Of a stretch of 33,037 bases of DNA, positions 11,777 to 20,754 are shown piece after piece. Location: the NCBI GenBank assembly GCA_013203465.1, contig JABMNR010000108.1:1-33037 (forward strand), in the 5' to 3' direction. The first letter of the stretch is position 1. Every line of letters begins with the position of its first letter. The DNA is from Alphaproteobacteria bacterium. GTDB lineage: Bacteria > Pseudomonadota > Alphaproteobacteria > Thalassobaculales > Thalassobaculaceae. Position numbers and translations under genes: made by a program. The notes beneath the pieces were generated by a model, which made no database searches, was not told the DNA's origin, and worked only from the letters and a program-made list of their open reading frames with translations.

Positions 11777-13918
11777 ATGGCGTCAACAACTGGGGCGACT
11801 CCGCTGTTCGCGATTGAAGCGGTCGCCGTCGATACCGAAACGACTGGTCTGGATGCCGCCAAGGTCAGGATCATCCAGCTTGGAGCGATCCACATAGCGA
11901 ATGGGGCGCTGGACGCCGAGAGATTCTACGAACAGCTCATCGCTCCCGGCGTGCCTATCCCGCCACCCTCGACGGCCATACACGGCATCACCGAAAACGC
12001 GGTTCTTGAGGCGCCGACGCTGAAAGAGGCCTGGCCCACCTTCATCGCCTTTCTGGATGAACGGGTTGTCGTCGGGCACTCGATCGGTTTCGATCTGACG
12101 GTTCTGGCCGCCGAGGCGGAACGCAACCGACTTGCCTGGAAGAAACCACGATCGTTGTGTGTACGCCTGCTGGCGACGATCGTGGCTCCGACGCTTGCCA
12201 ACCACTCGCTTGATGCGCTGGCGAGTTGGCTCGGATTGGAGACGAGAAACCGGCACCAAGCCCTGGGAGACGCCGAGGCAGCCGGCCTCGTCTTCCTCGC
12301 CCTCATCCCAAAACTGCGGGAAAAAGGCATACGCACGCTCGCCGAGGCCGAACGCGCCTGTTTGGGACTGCTGCCCGAGTTGAACCGTCACGCCAACGCG
12401 GGGTGGGACATGCCGGTATCCGAACCGGGTCTCGACGACAAACGGGGCGTACTCGACCGTTTTGACAGCTATGCCTACCGCCACCGCACCGGCGATCTGA
12501 TGGCCAGCCCCGTTACCGTGGTCACGCCCGACACGACCCTCAAACAGGCCCTCGATTTGATGGCGTCGCGCGCCATCTCGTCGGTGTTCGTATCGCCAAC
12601 CGGTCAACCGAACCGTGATGTCCGGGACTACGCCATTCTGACGGAACGGGATGCGATGCGCCGGATCGCCAAGAATGGAGCCGCCGCCCTGGACGAGGTT
12701 GTGGCGGCGATCGGTTCGAGGCCGATCCACACCATTCATGAGAACGCCTTCCTCTATCGCGCGATCGGTCGGATGAGCCGCCTCAAGATACGTCATCTGG
12801 GCGTACACTCGGACTCGGACATCTTGACCGGCGTCGTCTCCGCTCGAGACCTGCTGCGGTTGCGCGCCGACCCTGCCATCGCCCTCAACGACGTGATTGA
12901 AGAGTCCGCGTCGGCCGAGACGTTGGCGGTGGCCTGGTCGAGCTTGCCAGGCGTTGTTAACGCGCTCATCGCCGAGGAGATCGATGCACGCGTCATCTGT
13001 GAGATCGTCAGCGAGGAAATCCGCGCCATGACCCGGCGCGCCGCCGTCCTCGCCGCCGAGTCCATGATCTCCGATGGCAAGGGAGATGCTCCTTGTCCCT
13101 ATGCCGTCATGGTCCTGGGGTCGGGAGGGCGTGGCGAAAGCCTTCTTGTTCCCGACCAGGATAACGCGATCGTCTTTGCCACCGGCGCGCCGGGGGGGAC
13201 CGAAGACCGCTGGTTCGCCGAGCTTGGCGCGCGCATGACCGACATCCTCGACGCGGGCGGGATTCCGTACTGCACCGGTGGGGTCATGGCGCGCAACGAC
13301 GCCTGGCGCGGATCGGTCGACACGTGGAAGGACCGCATCGACGGATGGGTTCGGCGGTCCACGCTGGAGGACGCCCTCAACGTCGATATTTTTTTCGATC
13401 TGACCCCGGTTCACGGCGCGCGATCCCTCGCTCTCGACCTCTTGGCTCACGCCTATGATCGCGGCCGAGGCAATGTGGCCTTCGCCAAGGCACTGGCGCG
13501 AAATCTTTCCGCGGTGCCGGAACCGTTCACGATGTTGGGTGGACTGAAAGCCGCGGGAGGTCGTTTCGATTTAAAACTGTACGCTCTTTTTCCCATCGTG
13601 GCGGCCACCCGAACATTAGCGATTCGCCACAATGTAAGAAGACAATCGACCAAGGCGCGCATCGAGGAACTGATAAAGCTTGGCCTTGGCAGTGAAGCGG
13701 ATTTCACCGCCATGCTGCACACGCACACCCTCGCCTTGTCGCTGATGTTGGGGCAGCAGAGTCAGGACATCGCGTCGGGCCGAAAGTCGTCCAACTTGAT
13801 TGACCTCAACGGGTTAAGCAGGTCGCAAAAAAATCATCTGAAACAATCGCTTAAGTCGATCTCTCACATCCCCACGATAGTGCGGGATCTGCTGTTCAAG
13901 CAGGTGTCACGTGGGTGA
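11777..13918 (+). CDS. Fused DEDDh exonuclease - CBS pair - DUF294 nucleotidyltransferase
   Basis: A 713-aa three-part protein. Residues 10-175 are a DnaQ/epsilon-type 3'-5' exonuclease with the DEDDh set D19 and E21 (DTETTG), D106 (GHSIGFDL), H160 and D165. Residues about 235-365 are two CBS repeats (RTGDLMASPVTVVTPD and IRHLGVHS..TGVVSARDLL), which usually sense adenine nucleotides. Residues about 380-560 are a DUF294 GlnD-like nucleotidyltransferase with GSGGRGES (448-455) and the metal aspartates D460 and D462. The rest is the DUF294 C-terminal helical domain. GGGAGGG at 11765-11771 is five bases before ATG 11777. It precedes the DUF4212/symporter pair, so a role in sensing or controlling solute uptake is inferred. 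All visible catalytic residues are intact. Confidence 0.88.
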   Translation: MASTTGATPLFAIEAVAVDTETTGLDAAKVRIIQLGAIHIANGALDAERFYEQLIAPGVPIPPPSTAIHGITENAVLEAPTLKEAWPTFIAFLDERVVVGHSIGFDLTVLAAEAERNRLAWKKPRSLCVRLLATIVAPTLANHSLDALASWLGLETRNRHQALGDAEAAGLVFLALIPKLREKGIRTLAEAERACLGLLPELNRHANAGWDMPVSEPGLDDKRGVLDRFDSYAYRHRTGDLMASPVTVVTPDTTLKQALDLMASRAISSVFVSPTGQPNRDVRDYAILTERDAMRRIAKNGAAALDEVVAAIGSRPIHTIHENAFLYRAIGRMSRLKIRHLGVHSDSDILTGVVSARDLLRLRADPAIALNDVIEESASAETLAVAWSSLPGVVNALIAEEIDARVICEIVSEEIRAMTRRAAVLAAESMISDGKGDAPCPYAVMVLGSGGRGESLLVPDQDNAIVFATGAPGGTEDRWFAELGARMTDILDAGGIPYCTGGVMARNDAWRGSVDTWKDRIDGWVRRSTLEDALNVDIFFDLTPVHGARSLALDLLAHAYDRGRGNVAFAKALARNLSAVPEPFTMLGGLKAAGGRFDLKLYALFPIVAATRTLAIRHNVRRQSTKARIEELIKLGLGSEADFTAMLHTHTLALSLMLGQQSQDIASGRKSSNLIDLNGLSRSQKNHLKQSLKSISHIPTIVRDLLFKQVSRG

Positions 13919-14179
13919 TGACGAGCGTGCAATTCTCGCCTGTGGGCGGCGGAAGACTTTAGAGTTCGATGGTGCTCTGATCGTATTAGCCGCCACGCGC
14001 CAAGAGATCTAGGGCGCCCGGGTCAAGCCCACCGATCGCTCTGCTTGCAAGATTCAGCGATTGAGTTACGCTCGTAAAGTAGCGTGGGCATTAGTCCACC
14101 CAGTTGGGGGCTCCAGATAAAAATTAAGATTAAACAGGGGAAACTCTGAGTTACCCAATGAAAATGGGAGGAAATAACC
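13919..14179. other. Intergenic region before the symporter genes
   Basis: 261 bp between the exonuclease/DUF294 gene and the DUF4212 gene on the same strand. The last 80 bases are AT-richer than the surroundings and end in a strong ribosome site, GGGAGG at 14166-14171. I see no reading frame of merit, no intrinsic terminator with a T-run and no convincing sigma-54 element. It probably holds the symporter promoter. Confidence 0.5.
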
Positions 14180-14446
14180 TTGAATGACCAAGTGATGGAG
14201 AATCGAGAAGAACATTGGCGGAGAACCAGAAATCTGATGATCATAAATCTGATCATATGGTTTTTCTTCGCTTTTGTCGTGCACTGGTTCGCGCGCGATC
14301 TCAATGAAATAAGCTTCATCGGCTTCCCTGTCGGTTACTACATGGCCTCTCAGGGATCGCTTTTCGCTTTCGTCATCCAGCTGTTTGTCTTCGTGAGACA
14401 GCAGGATCAGATCGATCGCGATTGCGGTGTGGCCGAAGAAGATTAA
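14180..14446 (+). CDS. DUF4212 small subunit of sodium:solute symporter
   Basis: An 88-aa inner-membrane protein with two transmembrane helices (about residues 18-40 and 52-73) and charged ends, of the DUF4212/TIGR03647 family. This family occurs as the small partner of VC_2705-type sodium:solute symporters. The motif EHWRRTRNLMIINLIIWFFF, followed by FPVGYYMASQGSLFAFV, is characteristic. The start is TTG 14180 because GGGAGG lies 8 bases upstream; the next in-frame ATG (14195) has no ribosome site. The large subunit starts 15 bp after the stop, so the two are translated from one message. The transported solute is unknown, with acetate or another short carboxylate likely by family association. 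Confidence 0.9.
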   Translation: MNDQVMENREEHWRRTRNLMIINLIIWFFFAFVVHWFARDLNEISFIGFPVGYYMASQGSLFAFVIQLFVFVRQQDQIDRDCGVAEED

Positions 14447-14461
14447 GGGAGGAATCGCGTC

Positions 14462-16294
14462 ATGAGCTGGTTCAGAATTCAGGGAAGGTTCGTCGATAAC
14501 CTGCCCAAGATCTATGGCATCTACACGGGCGGCTTTCTGGGATTCGTCGCCTTGATGGCCATCCTCGAGCAGTACGGGGGCGCTACCGCCGACACCATCG
14601 GCATCCTGTTCGTCGCCTTCACCATCGTCATCTACGCCCTCATCGGCTGGCTGTCCCGCACGATGCAGGTCGACGCCTACTACGTCGCGGGGCGTGAGGT
14701 GCCGCCCGTGTTCAACGGGATGGCGACCGCCGCCGACTGGATGTCCGGCGCGTCCTTCGTCGCCATGGCCGGCGGTATCTACATGGGCGGCCACTCCTAC
14801 CTTGCCTTCGTGGTCGGGTGGACCGGTGGTTACGTGTTGGTCGCGGTACTGATGGCGCCGTATTTGCGCAAGTTCGGCTGCTACACGGTTCCGGACTTCA
14901 TCGGCACCCGCTACGGCGGCAATCTCACGCGCCTCCTTGCGGTCCTGGTTCTGGTGGTGGCGTCCTTCACTTACGTGACGGCGCAGATCAACGCGACCGG
15001 CACCATCGCGTCGCGCGCGTTGCAGATCCCATTCGAGGTCGGCGTCTGGTTCGGCCTTCTGGGCATTCTGCTGTGCTCGATGCTCGGCGGTATGCGGGCG
15101 GTCACCTGGACCCAAGTGGCGCAATACATCGTGCTGATCATCGCCTATCTCGTACCGGTGTTCTGGATGTCCATGAAGCAGGACTTCGGCGTCATTCCCC
15201 AGTTCGCCTATGGTGACGCCACGGCCCGCATTCAGGAACTGGAGCCCATGCTGGGTGTCGGTACACTCAAGGCGACCGAGAGCTTCGCCGGTCTGAGTGC
15301 GTTGGTGAACCTGCACGCCACACCGGGCGACTCCGCCCTCGCGGCGTGGAAGTTCGTGACCCTGGTCGCCGCCATGATGCTCGGCACGGCGTCGCTGCCG
15401 CACATCCTGATGCGCTACTTCACCACCCCGTCGGTGCGCGCCGCCCGGACCTCGGTGGCGTGGTCGTTGTTCTTCATCACCCTGCTGTACTTCACCGCTC
15501 CGGCGTTGGCGACGTTCACCAAGCTGCAGGTGCTGGATCCGAATCTAGCGACCAGCATCATCGGCAAGGCCATTGTCGACGTAAACGCGCTGGAATGGAT
15601 ACAGAAATGGAGCGAGATCGGCATGTTGAAGATCGCCGACTCCAACGGTGACGGCATTCTGCAGATCAACGAGTTCTTCATGCGCGGCGATATCGTCGTG
15701 CTGGCGACCCCGGAGATCGCGGGACTACCCTACGTCATCTCCGGCCTGGTGGCCGCGGGTGGCATGGCGGCGGCGATGTCGACGGCCGATGGCCTGCTTC
15801 TGGCCATCGCCAACGCGCTTAGCCACGATCTGTACTACAAGATCATCGACCCCAAGGCGGAAACCCGGAAGCGACTTCTGGTTGCCCGTATCCTGCTGAT
15901 CCTGATCGGTGCCGCCGGCGCCTTCGTGGCCAGCCTGAAGTTGACCAGTATTCTCGGAGCGGTGGCCTGGGCCTTCTGTTTCGCGATGTCCGGTCTGTTC
16001 TTCCCGCTGGTGCTCGGGGTCTGGTGGAAACGGGCCAATCGCGCGGGAGCGATCGCCGGCATGGCGGTCGGGCTGGGCGTTGGCTTCTGGTACCTCTACA
16101 TGGTCAGGTTCGCGGGTATGGAGCCGTGGATCGGTCTTGATCACCTTCGCTTCGGCATCGTCGGGGCAAGCGCAAGCCTGATCTCGATGGTCGCGGTGAC
16201 CCTGATGACCGCGGCACCCGACGCGGAGACTCAAGCCATGGTGGACGAGGTTCGCATCCCATCTGGCGCGACCATCCTAGGGTCGACGCACTAA
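14462..16294 (+). CDS. Sodium:solute symporter large subunit (VC_2705/ActP-like) with EF-hand loop
   Basis: A 610-aa inner-membrane sodium-coupled transporter of the SSS family, VC_2705 subfamily (TIGR03648), with about 13 membrane segments. TYYVAGREVPPVFNGMATAADWMSGASF-type sequence at about 77-105, GGYVLVAVLMAPYLRKFGCYTVPDF and GLVAAGGMAAAMSTADGLLLAIANALSHD are SSS sodium-site and core motifs. Between membrane segments at residues 393-404 (15638-15673) it has a canonical EF-hand loop, DSNGDGILQINE, with acidic or amide groups at positions 1, 3, 5 and 9 and Glu at position 12. GGGAGG precedes the ATG. It pairs with the DUF4212 subunit and ends at a strong terminator. The substrate is not known; ActP homologues carry acetate. 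Confidence 0.9.
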   Translation: MSWFRIQGRFVDNLPKIYGIYTGGFLGFVALMAILEQYGGATADTIGILFVAFTIVIYALIGWLSRTMQVDAYYVAGREVPPVFNGMATAADWMSGASFVAMAGGIYMGGHSYLAFVVGWTGGYVLVAVLMAPYLRKFGCYTVPDFIGTRYGGNLTRLLAVLVLVVASFTYVTAQINATGTIASRALQIPFEVGVWFGLLGILLCSMLGGMRAVTWTQVAQYIVLIIAYLVPVFWMSMKQDFGVIPQFAYGDATARIQELEPMLGVGTLKATESFAGLSALVNLHATPGDSALAAWKFVTLVAAMMLGTASLPHILMRYFTTPSVRAARTSVAWSLFFITLLYFTAPALATFTKLQVLDPNLATSIIGKAIVDVNALEWIQKWSEIGMLKIADSNGDGILQINEFFMRGDIVVLATPEIAGLPYVISGLVAAGGMAAAMSTADGLLLAIANALSHDLYYKIIDPKAETRKRLLVARILLILIGAAGAFVASLKLTSILGAVAWAFCFAMSGLFFPLVLGVWWKRANRAGAIAGMAVGLGVGFWYLYMVRFAGMEPWIGLDHLRFGIVGASASLISMVAVTLMTAAPDAETQAMVDEVRIPSGATILGSTH

Positions 16295-16310: not shown

Positions 16311-16349
16311 AAGCCGGGGAGAGAATACCTCTCCCCGGCTTCTTTTTTT
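16311..16349 (+). terminator. Rho-independent terminator after the symporter operon
   Basis: A perfect 13-bp stem (16311-16323 pairing with 16329-16341), with a five-base loop AATAC and a run of seven T at 16343-16349. It starts 17 bases after the symporter stop codon, so it closes the exonuclease/symporter transcription unit. Confidence 0.93.
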
Positions 16350-16396: not shown

Positions 16397-16753
16397 ATGC
16401 AATCCGCCATTCCCCTTTGGGCCTTGGTGCTCGACTACGTCCTTGGGATGATCATGTGGACGTTGATCGGCCGCTTTGGGATGGGCCTCTTCCTGCCCAA
16501 GGAAAGTAAATTCTTTTTTATGCGGTTTTTCGTGTGGGCGACGGATCCGCTGCTCAATCTCTTTAAGCCGATCACGCCCAGCTTTCTCATCCCCGCCATC
16601 GTGCCGCTCTACGTGGCGTGGTTCTTTTACATGGTCCGCTTCTATCTGATGCCCTGGGTGCTCGGCTATTCGGTGATGGGCATGCTGTCGTTTCCGCTGG
16701 AAAGCGAGTTCGCCCACGGGCTGGCCGCATTCTTCAGGATGTTCCTCAACTAA
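16397..16753 (+). CDS. Small integral membrane protein, unknown function
   Basis: 118 aa, with three hydrophobic helices (about 6-30, 60-83 and 87-106) joined by a loop FVWATDPLLNLFKPITPSFL. That loop and the following hydrophobic stretch vaguely recall YggT-family proteins, but the match is too weak to name. GGAG at 16383-16386 lies 10 bases before the ATG, and the codon use fits the neighbours. It follows the terminator of the symporter operon, so it has its own transcription or depends on read-through. It converges with the next gene, 12 bp away. Confidence 0.65.
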   Translation: MQSAIPLWALVLDYVLGMIMWTLIGRFGMGLFLPKESKFFFMRFFVWATDPLLNLFKPITPSFLIPAIVPLYVAWFFYMVRFYLMPWVLGYSVMGMLSFPLESEFAHGLAAFFRMFLN

Positions 16754-17609: not shown

Positions 17610-18521
17610 TCAGATCCCGCGCGCCTTGATCCGATCGCGGGCCGTGATCACCCGCCGGGCGCGATCGACAATCGGCTTGTCGATCATCTTGCCCTGGTAG
17701 GCGACAGCGCCGAGGCCGCGCGCCAGCGCATCGTCGAACGCCGCCAGCACGCCCTCGGCGTGGGTGATCTCTTCAGCACTCGGGGCGAAAGCGGCGTTCA
17801 GCACCGGCACCTGCGCCGGATGGATCGCCATGCCGCCTTCCGAGCCATTGCGCCGCCCCGCCTCGGCCGCCCGGCGGAAGGCATCGAGGTCGGTAAACTC
17901 GGCGATCGAGCCGGGATAGCCCAACGGGATCACCCCGGCCTCACGCGCCGCCAGCCGCACCGCCGCGTCATAGGGGTCGAGCACGGCGGGGTCCGGCTCC
18001 GGCAGGCCGAGATCGGCCGACATATCCTCACCGCCAAGCGTGATCGCCGCCACCCGCGCGCTGCCCTTGGCGATGGCGCGAGCCTCGGCCACGCCCTTGG
18101 CGGTCTCCACCAGCACGGCATAGCGGATATGGCCGGGCACCAGCCCCCGCTCCGCCTCCAGCTCGGCCACCACCTCATCGATCGCCACAAGATGATCGGC
18201 GCTATCGACCTTCGGCAAGCACAGCCCGTCGACCCCGGGGATTACCGCCGCCTCCAGATCAGCCACCGCGAGGCGCCAGGGCCGGTTGATCCGCACCAGC
18301 ACGTCGCCCGCTCCCCGCGCCACGGCCGCGACCGCGCCGGCCAACACCGACCGCGCCGCCGTCTTGGCGTCGGGGGGGATCGAGTCCTCCAAATCGAGGA
18401 TGATCCCGTCGGCGCCGCGCTCCGCCGCCTTGGCGACGAACCGCACCGCCGTCGCCGGCACATACAACAGCGACCGCCACAGTGGTGGTTCGCGGGGCGG
18501 CTCCCGGTCGGTCCCAGCCAT
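17610..18521 (-). CDS. CitE/HpcH-HpaI family CoA-ester lyase
   Basis: A 303-aa TIM-barrel lyase of the citrate lyase beta/malyl-CoA lyase group, cleaving a 3-hydroxyacyl-CoA type ester into acetyl-CoA (or propionyl-CoA) and a 2-oxo acid with Mg2+. Family marks are RSLLYVPATAVRFVAKAAERGADGIILDLEDSIPP at the N terminus, LVRINRP, GLCLPKVDSADHL, the acid AVLVETAKGV, LGGEDMSADLG and AIHPAQVPVLN. Its ATG shares one base with the stop of the CoA-transferase gene (TGATG at 18519-18523), so translation is coupled. The likely substrate is a hydroxy-dicarboxylyl-CoA such as malyl-, citramalyl- or methylmalyl-CoA; the sequence alone does not separate these. Confidence 0.88.
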   Translation of the reverse strand: MAGTDREPPREPPLWRSLLYVPATAVRFVAKAAERGADGIILDLEDSIPPDAKTAARSVLAGAVAAVARGAGDVLVRINRPWRLAVADLEAAVIPGVDGLCLPKVDSADHLVAIDEVVAELEAERGLVPGHIRYAVLVETAKGVAEARAIAKGSARVAAITLGGEDMSADLGLPEPDPAVLDPYDAAVRLAAREAGVIPLGYPGSIAEFTDLDAFRRAAEAGRRNGSEGGMAIHPAQVPVLNAAFAPSAEEITHAEGVLAAFDDALARGLGAVAYQGKMIDKPIVDRARRVITARDRIKARGI

Positions 18522-19729
18522 CAGATCACCCCTTGTTCGGAGAGCACGGCCGGATCACGGCCAAGCGCGCGCCAGATGTCGTCGTTGTGCTCGCCCAATT
18601 CCGGGGCGGGGCGGCGAAGATGGCCCGGCGTGCGGGACAGCCGGGGAATGACGTTGTGCATGGTCAGACGGCCCGCCTGCTCATCCGGCAGGGAGACCAG
18701 AACTTTCCGGTCGCGCGGATAGGGGTGCTCGGCGATCTGCGCCACATCGGCCACGGCCCCGACCGTCACGCCCGCTTCCTCGAACAAGGCCAGGCATTCG
18801 TCCCGGGTTCGTTCCGCCATGAAGGCGCCGACGATCGGGTCGAGCTGATCGTTGTTCGCCACCCGATCGGTGTTGGTGCGAAACCGGGGATCATCGATCA
18901 GATCCGGCCTGCCCATAGCACGGAACAGCCGCTCGGCCATCGCCTGCATCGAGCCGGAAAGCGCCACGTACTTGCCGTCCTTGCAGCGGTAGACATTGCG
19001 CGGTGCTGTCTGATTGGACAGCGAGCCCTTGCGCTCGGGAACTTTCTTCGTCAGCTCGTAATTGGCGACGATCGGCCCCAGGACCGAATGAATCGGGTCG
19101 AACAGCGGCAGATCGATCACCTGCCCCGGCCCGCCCTTCAGCTCCATCTCGCGCACCGCCACCATCACCGCGAAGGCACCGTACAGCCCGGCGATCATGT
19201 CGGCCAGCGCCAGCGGCGGCAGCACCGGCGGCCGATCATCGAAACCGTTCATCGCGGCAAATCCGCTCATCGCCTCGACCAGACTGCCGAACCCGGGCTT
19301 GTGCGCCCACATCCCATCCTGTCCCCAACCGGAGATGCGGACGATCACCAGATCCGGGTTGCGGGCGTGCAGCACCTCTGGGCCGATCCCCATCGCCTCC
19401 AAGGTGCCGGGCTTGAAATTCTCGACCAGCACCCGCGCGGTCGCCGCCAAGTCGAGAAACAGCTCGGTCGCTCCCTCGGCCCGCCAGTTCAGCGTCACGC
19501 TCTTTTTGTTCCGGCAGTAGACCTTCCAATGGGTCGCCACCCCTTCGGTCTTCCAATTGCGCAGATCGTCGCCGGTGCCCGGTTTCTCGACCTTGATGAC
19601 CTCGGCCCCGTGATCGGCCAGCACATGGGTCACGGCGTTGCCGGCGACCAAGCGGGACAAGTCAAGCACCCGCATCCCGTCGAGCGCGCCCTGTGCGTCG
19701 GGCGTCCATTCAATCTCGGCCCCGCTCAT
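18521..19729 (-). CDS. CaiB/BaiF (family III) CoA-transferase
   Basis: A 402-aa family III CoA-transferase, moving CoA between carboxylic acids through an enzyme-bound aspartyl anhydride. Visible marks are GMRVLDLSRLVAG (residues 18-30), HGAEVIKVEKPGTGDDLR, VYCRNKKSVTLN, LVENFKPGTLEAMG, RISGWGQDG and LALADMIAGLYGAFAVMVA with the likely catalytic Asp at 177. The C-terminal part has the expected GRPDLIDDPRFRTNTDRVANNDQL. Its start overlaps the stop of the upstream dehydrogenase by ATGA (19726-19729) and its stop overlaps the lyase start, so the three proteins are made together. It probably activates the organic acid later cleaved by the lyase. Confidence 0.9.
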   Translation of the reverse strand: MSGAEIEWTPDAQGALDGMRVLDLSRLVAGNAVTHVLADHGAEVIKVEKPGTGDDLRNWKTEGVATHWKVYCRNKKSVTLNWRAEGATELFLDLAATARVLVENFKPGTLEAMGIGPEVLHARNPDLVIVRISGWGQDGMWAHKPGFGSLVEAMSGFAAMNGFDDRPPVLPPLALADMIAGLYGAFAVMVAVREMELKGGPGQVIDLPLFDPIHSVLGPIVANYELTKKVPERKGSLSNQTAPRNVYRCKDGKYVALSGSMQAMAERLFRAMGRPDLIDDPRFRTNTDRVANNDQLDPIVGAFMAERTRDECLALFEEAGVTVGAVADVAQIAEHPYPRDRKVLVSLPDEQAGRLTMHNVIPRLSRTPGHLRRPAPELGEHNDDIWRALGRDPAVLSEQGVI

Positions 19730-20685
19730 ACAGTGCTCTCCTCGGCCAGCGCGGCAAGCACCGCGTCGGCGATCACGGTTCCCACACGGTCGTTGCTTTC
19801 ATCGGTCAGGCCGGCGATGTGCGGGGTCAAAACCAGATTAGGGCACCCCTCGAACACCGCCGCCGCCTCGGCCGACAGCGGTTCGGTCTCGAACACGTCG
19901 AGGGCGGCGCCGGCCACCTGTCCCCGGCGCAGGGCATCGGCCAAGGCCGCCTCGTCCACCACCCCGCCACGCGCGGCGTTGATCAACACCGCCCCCGGCC
20001 GCATCGACGCCATGGCTTCACCGTTGATCAGCTTCCGGGTGCCACCGGTCAGGGGAACGTGCAGGCTCACCACATCGGCGACCGCCAGGAGTTCCGTGAG
20101 ATCGCGACAACACCGGACACCCCGCAGCGCCGGGTCGCCAGGATCGAGATAGGGATCGAAGGCGGCGATCGCCATGCCGAGCGCGCGGGCCCGGCTCGCC
20201 ACCTGGCGGGCGATGGCGCCGTAGCCGACCAACCCCATCGTCTTGCCCGCCACCTCGCGGCCGATTAACGCCGTGCGCGGCCAGGCACCGGTGATCATCG
20301 CGTCGTTCGAGCCGTAAGCGCCGCGCAGCAGATGCAACGCCATAGCGATCACGTATTCGGCGACGCTGACGTCGTTGGCGCCGGCCGCCGGGGCCACGGC
20401 TACACTGCGCGCCTGACAGGCGGCCACGTCGATGTTGTCCAAGCCGACGCCCAACCGACCGACGATGCGCAAGCCGGAGCCGGCCGCCAGCAGATCATCG
20501 GTCACCCGTGTGCGGTTGCGCACCACCAGCGCCCGCGCCAGGCGCAACAGCGCCGGGATCGCCTTCGGCCGATCGACCAGGCCGGGATCGTACAGCGTGT
20601 CGTGCGCCGCCGAGAGGCGGTCGACCGCAGCCCGATCCATGAACTCGGTGATAACGATGTCGGGATTCGACGAGGGCATGCGCAT
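19726..20685 (-). CDS. D-isomer-specific 2-hydroxyacid dehydrogenase
   Basis: A 319-aa NAD(P)-dependent dehydrogenase interconverting a 2-hydroxy acid and a 2-oxo acid. The Rossmann motif is GLVGYGAIARQVASRA (GxGxxA variant). The catalytic set is the Arg in INAARGGVVDEAALADAL, the Glu in DVFETEPL and the His in LTPHIAG. The N terminus, DIVITEFMDRAAVDRL with ALVVRNRTRVTDDLL, recalls SlcC-type sulfolactate dehydrogenases, but that is memory-based and unproven; a glycerate/glyoxylate-type activity is the alternative. The start is taken at ATG 20685; TTG 20706 and ATG 20679 are also possible as no good ribosome site is seen. First gene of the three-gene operon. Confidence 0.87.
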   Translation of the reverse strand: MRMPSSNPDIVITEFMDRAAVDRLSAAHDTLYDPGLVDRPKAIPALLRLARALVVRNRTRVTDDLLAAGSGLRIVGRLGVGLDNIDVAACQARSVAVAPAAGANDVSVAEYVIAMALHLLRGAYGSNDAMITGAWPRTALIGREVAGKTMGLVGYGAIARQVASRARALGMAIAAFDPYLDPGDPALRGVRCCRDLTELLAVADVVSLHVPLTGGTRKLINGEAMASMRPGAVLINAARGGVVDEAALADALRRGQVAGAALDVFETEPLSAEAAAVFEGCPNLVLTPHIAGLTDESNDRVGTVIADAVLAALAEESTV

Positions 20686-20754
20686 GTCCGAAAGCGGATT
20701 AGACAAGGTTGGACAATACCCTTGCTGATCGGACCTCGAAAGAACCGTGCCGCC

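Follow-up and report, generated by a model that had tools for sequence, protein, structure and literature searches.

The window, a stretch of 33,037 nucleotides that makes up the whole of contig 101 in a genome of 4.48 Mb and 238 contigs, carries on its plus strand a gene joining an exonuclease to a nucleotidyltransferase, followed by the two genes of a sodium/solute symporter and an intrinsic terminator (Table 1). The frame of the first gene is intact from its ATG to its stop codon, and AGGGAGGG stands a few bases 5' of the ATG. In the 713-residue product, Pfam profiles matched above their cutoffs to an RNase_T exonuclease (residues 16 to 172; 103.8 bits), a CBS pair (residues 239 to 364; both CBS domains above cutoff, the best at 239 to 297), DUF294 (PF03445; residues 390 to 529; 128.4 bits), and DUF294_C (PF10335; residues 569 to 698; 92.5 bits). 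AlphaFold modeled the whole chain with a mean pLDDT of 91.6, leaving the linker between the exonuclease and the CBS pair (residues 212 to 229) disordered. The original prediction, made from the letters of the window alone, of an exonuclease, a CBS pair, and DUF294 in one frame was borne out, as were the DUF4212 gene, the SSS transporter gene, and the strong terminator that it had placed after them on the same strand.

Table 1. Features of the fused gene and symporter locus (window positions)
Feature	Position	Strand	Description and basis
Fused DEDDh exonuclease-CBS pair-DUF294-DUF294_C gene	11777..13918	+	ATG at 11777, stop at 13918; 713 aa; ORF, Pfam, AlphaFold
Intergenic stretch, fused gene to DUF4212	13919..14179	.	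261 bp
DUF4212/TIGR03647 small symporter subunit	14180..14446	+	TTG start, Shine-Dalgarno GGGAGGA 5'; profiles
TIGR03648 (VC_2705 family) sodium/solute symporter large subunit	14462..16294	+	NCBIfam
Intrinsic terminator	16311..16341	+	13-pair stem, then T7

The TIGR03647 and TIGR03648 models both scored above cutoff on adjacent genes, as befits a two-subunit symporter; the large subunit reached 674.8 bits against an NCBIfam cutoff of 320.75. With a gap of 15 bp, the DUF4212 and symporter genes are very likely cotranscribed. Because 261 bp part the fused gene from DUF4212, a common transcript of all three genes is only possible; neither a convincing promoter nor a CrbR (ACTU) site was found in this stretch. 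By its family, the symporter would be a monocarboxylate uptake system of the acetate/pyruvate type: VC2704/VC2705, after which TIGR03648 is named, is described as a putative symporter of acetate and a cation in the CrbRS acetate switch (PMC7858070). Our literature searches on DUF4212 found nothing. Directly past the terminator lies a 118-aa hydrophobic frame (window 16397 to 16753) with no Pfam or NCBIfam match, and farther on, the minus strand (window 17610 to 20706) encodes in a row a CitE-like lyase, a CoA-transferase of family III, and a 2-hydroxyacid dehydrogenase, which may together form a small operon for acid degradation.

The catalytic residues expected by the original prediction are in place at both ends of the fused protein. 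The DEDDh set of the exonuclease, D19, E21, D106, H160, and D165, is complete and is the same in the eight fused proteins aligned; D19 and E21 are each kept in 177 of 178 exonucleases, H160 in all 178, and D165 in 176, and position 106 is D or E throughout (178/178). The DxE, D, and HxxxxD motifs, together with the predicted fold, mark this half as a putative 3'-5' exonuclease of the DEDDh (DnaQ/RNase T) type. The nucleotidyltransferase carries G448-S449, the metal aspartates in D460-Q-D462, and a third acid, D541; D460 and D462 are kept in 174 of 179 nucleotidyltransferases, the exceptions being mostly gaps, and D541 is D in 56 of 56 relatives. A cysteine at residue 499 (window 13271 to 13273) is also near-invariant in DUF294 (174 of 175 letters). 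Both CBS domains have the T/S-x-x-D ribose motif (T289..D292 and S355..D358), which suggests that the pair may bind adenine nucleotides and sense adenylate.

The one-chain fusion, which the original prediction had set against the separate genes often found elsewhere, is not special to this genome. Full exonuclease-CBS-DUF294-DUF294_C chains were found at 19 loci: the window, 7 found by genome searches, and 11 found by a scan of named genomes, whose records include Nitratireductor, Aquamicrobium, Bradyrhizobium, Pseudolabrys, Stappia, and Hoeflea. One of the 7, a relative from the same family (locus L032), is 63 to 64% identical. On a tree of 111 CBS-DUF294 rows, obtained by a quick search, the fused chains form one group that requires one change (SH-aLRT, 92) and is nested among loci in which a same-strand exonuclease gene immediately precedes the CBS-DUF294 gene. 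With 19 intact loci in one group, we rejected the idea that the fusion is a unique oddity; on its recurrence across many genomes, we likewise rejected an assembly artifact. On the evidence of the tree, the fusion probably arose once, and the loss of one stop codon in an alphaproteobacterial ancestor is the simplest account of the sequences. At two loci (L035 and L142), the exonuclease and CBS-DUF294 genes are still separate and mutually in frame, with a TAG between them. Where the exonuclease is not upstream, the gene order is usually reversed, and all five such CBS-DUF294 proteins scanned have an N-terminal cyclic nucleotide monophosphate (cNMP)-binding domain, of which the window protein has none. 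Two further copies are damaged: in genome G002 (L033:9240-9666), an inserted stretch resembling an insertion-sequence transposase breaks the fused gene in the nucleotidyltransferase active-site region, and in G022 (L034:7592-9801), the gene runs through three overlapping frames and is frameshifted or misassembled. Among the 19 intact fused loci, 10 show DUF4212 and the symporter (with the insertion-broken locus counted, 11 of 20), in varying orientation to the fused gene, which is divergent at 6; the other 9 intact loci showed no DUF4212 within the stretch examined.

To count co-occurrence, 299 evenly drawn Pseudomonadota genomes were surveyed with frames called from stop to stop, domain calls from profiles seeded with the window proteins, and DUF294 counted from strong matches. 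DUF294 was present in 116 genomes, DUF4212 in 102, and both in 80, far beyond chance (odds ratio, 16; Fisher P = 2e-24); 36 of the 116 DUF294 genomes lacked DUF4212. The survey gave at least 150 DUF294 places, and with distances taken to the matches listed, at least 66 of 104 DUF4212 loci lay within 10 kb of a DUF294 gene; in genomes with both, the figure was at least 66 of 82 (80%), against a rough chance expectation of <1% (20 kb of about 4 Mb). Around 84 DUF294 loci of the same draw, which we chose from a ranked list and surveyed over about 16 kb each, an exonuclease was fused or within 1 kb in 74, a transporter-sized SSS frame was present in 47, and DUF4212 was present in 34. The statement in the original prediction that separate exonuclease and DUF294-CBS genes often lie near such symporters was thus correct, and the linkage to the transporter is kept despite changing gene order and orientation. 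Among the loci inspected in detail, the exonuclease of many unfused relatives (L035, L038 to L042, L045, L053, L068, L146, L183, L202, and others) forms the C-terminal part of a longer frame, which begins with one or two hydrophobic segments and in some cases includes a PAS domain. This arrangement suggests that the exonucleases of many unfused relatives may be membrane-anchored sensors; the window protein has no such hydrophobic segment.

A clue to the reaction of the nucleotidyltransferase half came from its predicted fold. Among the matches listed, sequence searches of solved structures returned only exonuclease, CBS, and chance relatives, and the relatives of the nucleotidyltransferase surfaced by fold alone. 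Residues 366 to 713, modeled separately (pLDDT, 96.5), matched the N-terminal half of GlnE with a Z score of 27.9 over 313 residues, the C-terminal half of GlnE with 25.9, and DrrA with 25.1; partial or shorter DrrA chains followed at 13.0 and 12.5, and the next family, the aminoglycoside nucleotidyltransferases, stood at about 10. The exonuclease half has an ordinary DnaQ/RNase T fold. GlnE (the adenylyltransferase/deadenylylase of glutamine synthetase) and DrrA (SidM) are protein adenylyltransferases, and the likeness covers the nucleotidyltransferase, the helical C-terminal domain, and the metal-binding D-x-D, although sequence identity to the window protein is 11 to 12%. Whereas GlnE strips AMP with a second nucleotidyltransferase domain, the window protein has an exonuclease and a CBS pair in that place. 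By analogy it also resembles GlnD (UTase/UR), in which a nucleotidyltransferase, an opposing hydrolase, and sensor domains share one chain; in GlnD these are an HD hydrolase and ACT sensors, neither of which was found in the window protein by the Pfam scan. A survey of HEPN domains had already placed DUF294_C with the C-terminal domains of GlnD and GlnE (PMC3710099); what is new here is that the comparison of models carries the GlnE likeness to the whole DUF294-DUF294_C half. Because the closest folds are those of protein adenylyltransferases, the model favors a protein over RNA as acceptor and makes transfer of a nucleoside monophosphate (NMP) to protein plausible; a common fold alone is no proof of the reaction. 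We found no report of binding, activity, or biochemical function for any DUF294 protein in the literature searched.

The association of the exonuclease and DUF294 with a transporter is partly known already from Pseudomonas, in which the two are split genes (pp_0354/pp_0353, PA3233/PA3232, and pflu5625). In P. putida, pp_0354 (CBS-DUF294) and pp_0353 (RNase_T exonuclease) form an operon, which lies near glcB rather than actP (PMC9927547); in PAO1, their homologs adjoin actP and yjcH, and the genes belong to the MxtR/ErdR (CrbS/R) regulon together with acs and actP (PMC9927547, PMC5715377, PMC8402216). The window shares with these loci both the domains and the link to an acetate/pyruvate transporter of the SSS type that has a small partner. 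Unlike the single chain of the window, the Pseudomonas genes are two, with the nucleotidyltransferase before the exonuclease, the partner in PAO1 is ActP/YjcH where the window has TIGR03648/DUF4212, and the Pseudomonas-type CBS-DUF294 protein (L178) has the N-terminal cNMP-binding domain that the window protein lacks. Growth on pyruvate suffers when either pp_0353 or actP-I is deleted, and deletion of pp_0354 leaves growth on acetate, succinate, and pyruvate unchanged; Henriquez et al. propose a role for pp_0353 in mRNA decay (PMC9927547). The pyruvate phenotypes are those that an inhibitory DUF294 protein and an exonuclease relieving the inhibition would give; an exonuclease acting alone also fits. 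A search for papers on RB-TnSeq cofitness found none.

CrbS/R control found no support in the source genome. No SSS-type sensor kinase was found in the 238-contig assembly, in which the window symporter is the sole SSF match; a query with the kinase-type SSS frame of L141 hit kinase, PAS, and receiver parts alone. Matches to the ACTU motif in the window are about as many as chance would give (264 versus 267 expected). Elsewhere, kinase-type SSS frames of about 940 to 1340 aa stand beside the fused gene (L047, L049, L050, L135, L136, L138, and L141), and those scanned (L047, L135, L136, and L141) contain PAS and histidine kinase domains.

We propose that the fused protein acts in the cytoplasm to regulate the adjoining DUF4212-SSS symporter. 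The CBS pair would bind adenine nucleotides and so set its activity; the DUF294-DUF294_C half, acting like GlnE or DrrA, would place a nucleotide, most likely AMP, on a protein, lowering uptake or use of the acid; and the exonuclease half would oppose it, most simply by hydrolyzing the nucleotide off. To this model as a whole we assign a rough probability of 0.38; adenylate sensing, the protein substrate, the opposing roles, and the symporter system as target are inferred. The absence of a pp_0354 deletion phenotype, the position of the P. putida genes away from actP, and the DUF294 genomes and fused loci in which no DUF4212 was seen all weigh against it. The narrower version, in which the DEDDh exonuclease itself removes the tag of the GlnE-like domain under adenylate-gated CBS control to govern a sodium/monocarboxylate symporter, is unlikely. 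A nuclease that erases AMP has a precedent in RNase Z, which removes AMP from proteins as proposed here for the window exonuclease; yet RNase Z has a metallo-beta-lactamase fold and is specific for SelO substrates, and the DEDDh enzyme RNase T, of the same Pfam family as the window domain, showed no deAMPylation in vitro or in cells (PMC12663964). The original prediction had placed the modification on the transporter or on RNA. By fold, a protein is the likelier acceptor and RNA the less likely one; DUF4212 as the NMP acceptor is unsupported, since the soluble tails of the DUF4212 protein in the window hold no tyrosine, and no such tyrosine is universally conserved. Our confidence in a writer/eraser mechanism is modest because RNase T is inactive as a deAMPylase and DUF4212 makes an improbable acceptor in this case.

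The inactivity of RNase T (PMC12663964) and the ordinary fold of the exonuclease half would also suit an enzyme that works on the ends of RNA or DNA and might, for instance, trim mRNAs of transporter or TCA/glyoxylate genes, with the nucleotidyltransferase tuning it or acting separately. This reading agrees with the mRNA decay proposed for pp_0353 (PMC9927547); we consider it doubtful, as the nucleotidyltransferase half resembles protein adenylyltransferases and not RNA-modifying enzymes, the module keeps close to the transporter, and the predicted membrane anchoring of many unfused exonucleases would be odd for general mRNA decay. Modification of a central carbon enzyme such as Acs, with the symporter nearby merely through a common acetate/pyruvate program, is unlikely. 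It could draw on the coregulation of acs, actP, and the split genes by MxtR/ErdR and CrbS/R (PMC5715377, PMC8402216, PMC9927547), on the position of the P. putida genes near glcB, and on the 36 DUF294 genomes without DUF4212; against it stand the 10-kb linkage of 80% or more in genomes with both and the pyruvate phenotype common to actP-I and pp_0353 mutants. Alternatively, one end might synthesize and the other degrade a small nucleotide messenger that the CBS pair senses, with no protein modification: nucleotides are ligands of CBS domains, short oligonucleotides can be degraded by DEDDh enzymes, and signal nucleotides can be made by pol-beta-type enzymes. We regard this as very unlikely, given how far protein adenylyltransferases lead the other fold matches.

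Proteins of the DUF294-CBS type occur widely, as do the exonucleases that partner them, and the match of the model to GlnE and DrrA suggests what reaction they may catalyze. The fused form would unite a writer and its candidate eraser in a single soluble protein, open to direct assay. If the regulator proposed here is real, it would provide a route linking energy status to carboxylate uptake, and its exonuclease half would be a new kind of protein de-nucleotidylation enzyme.
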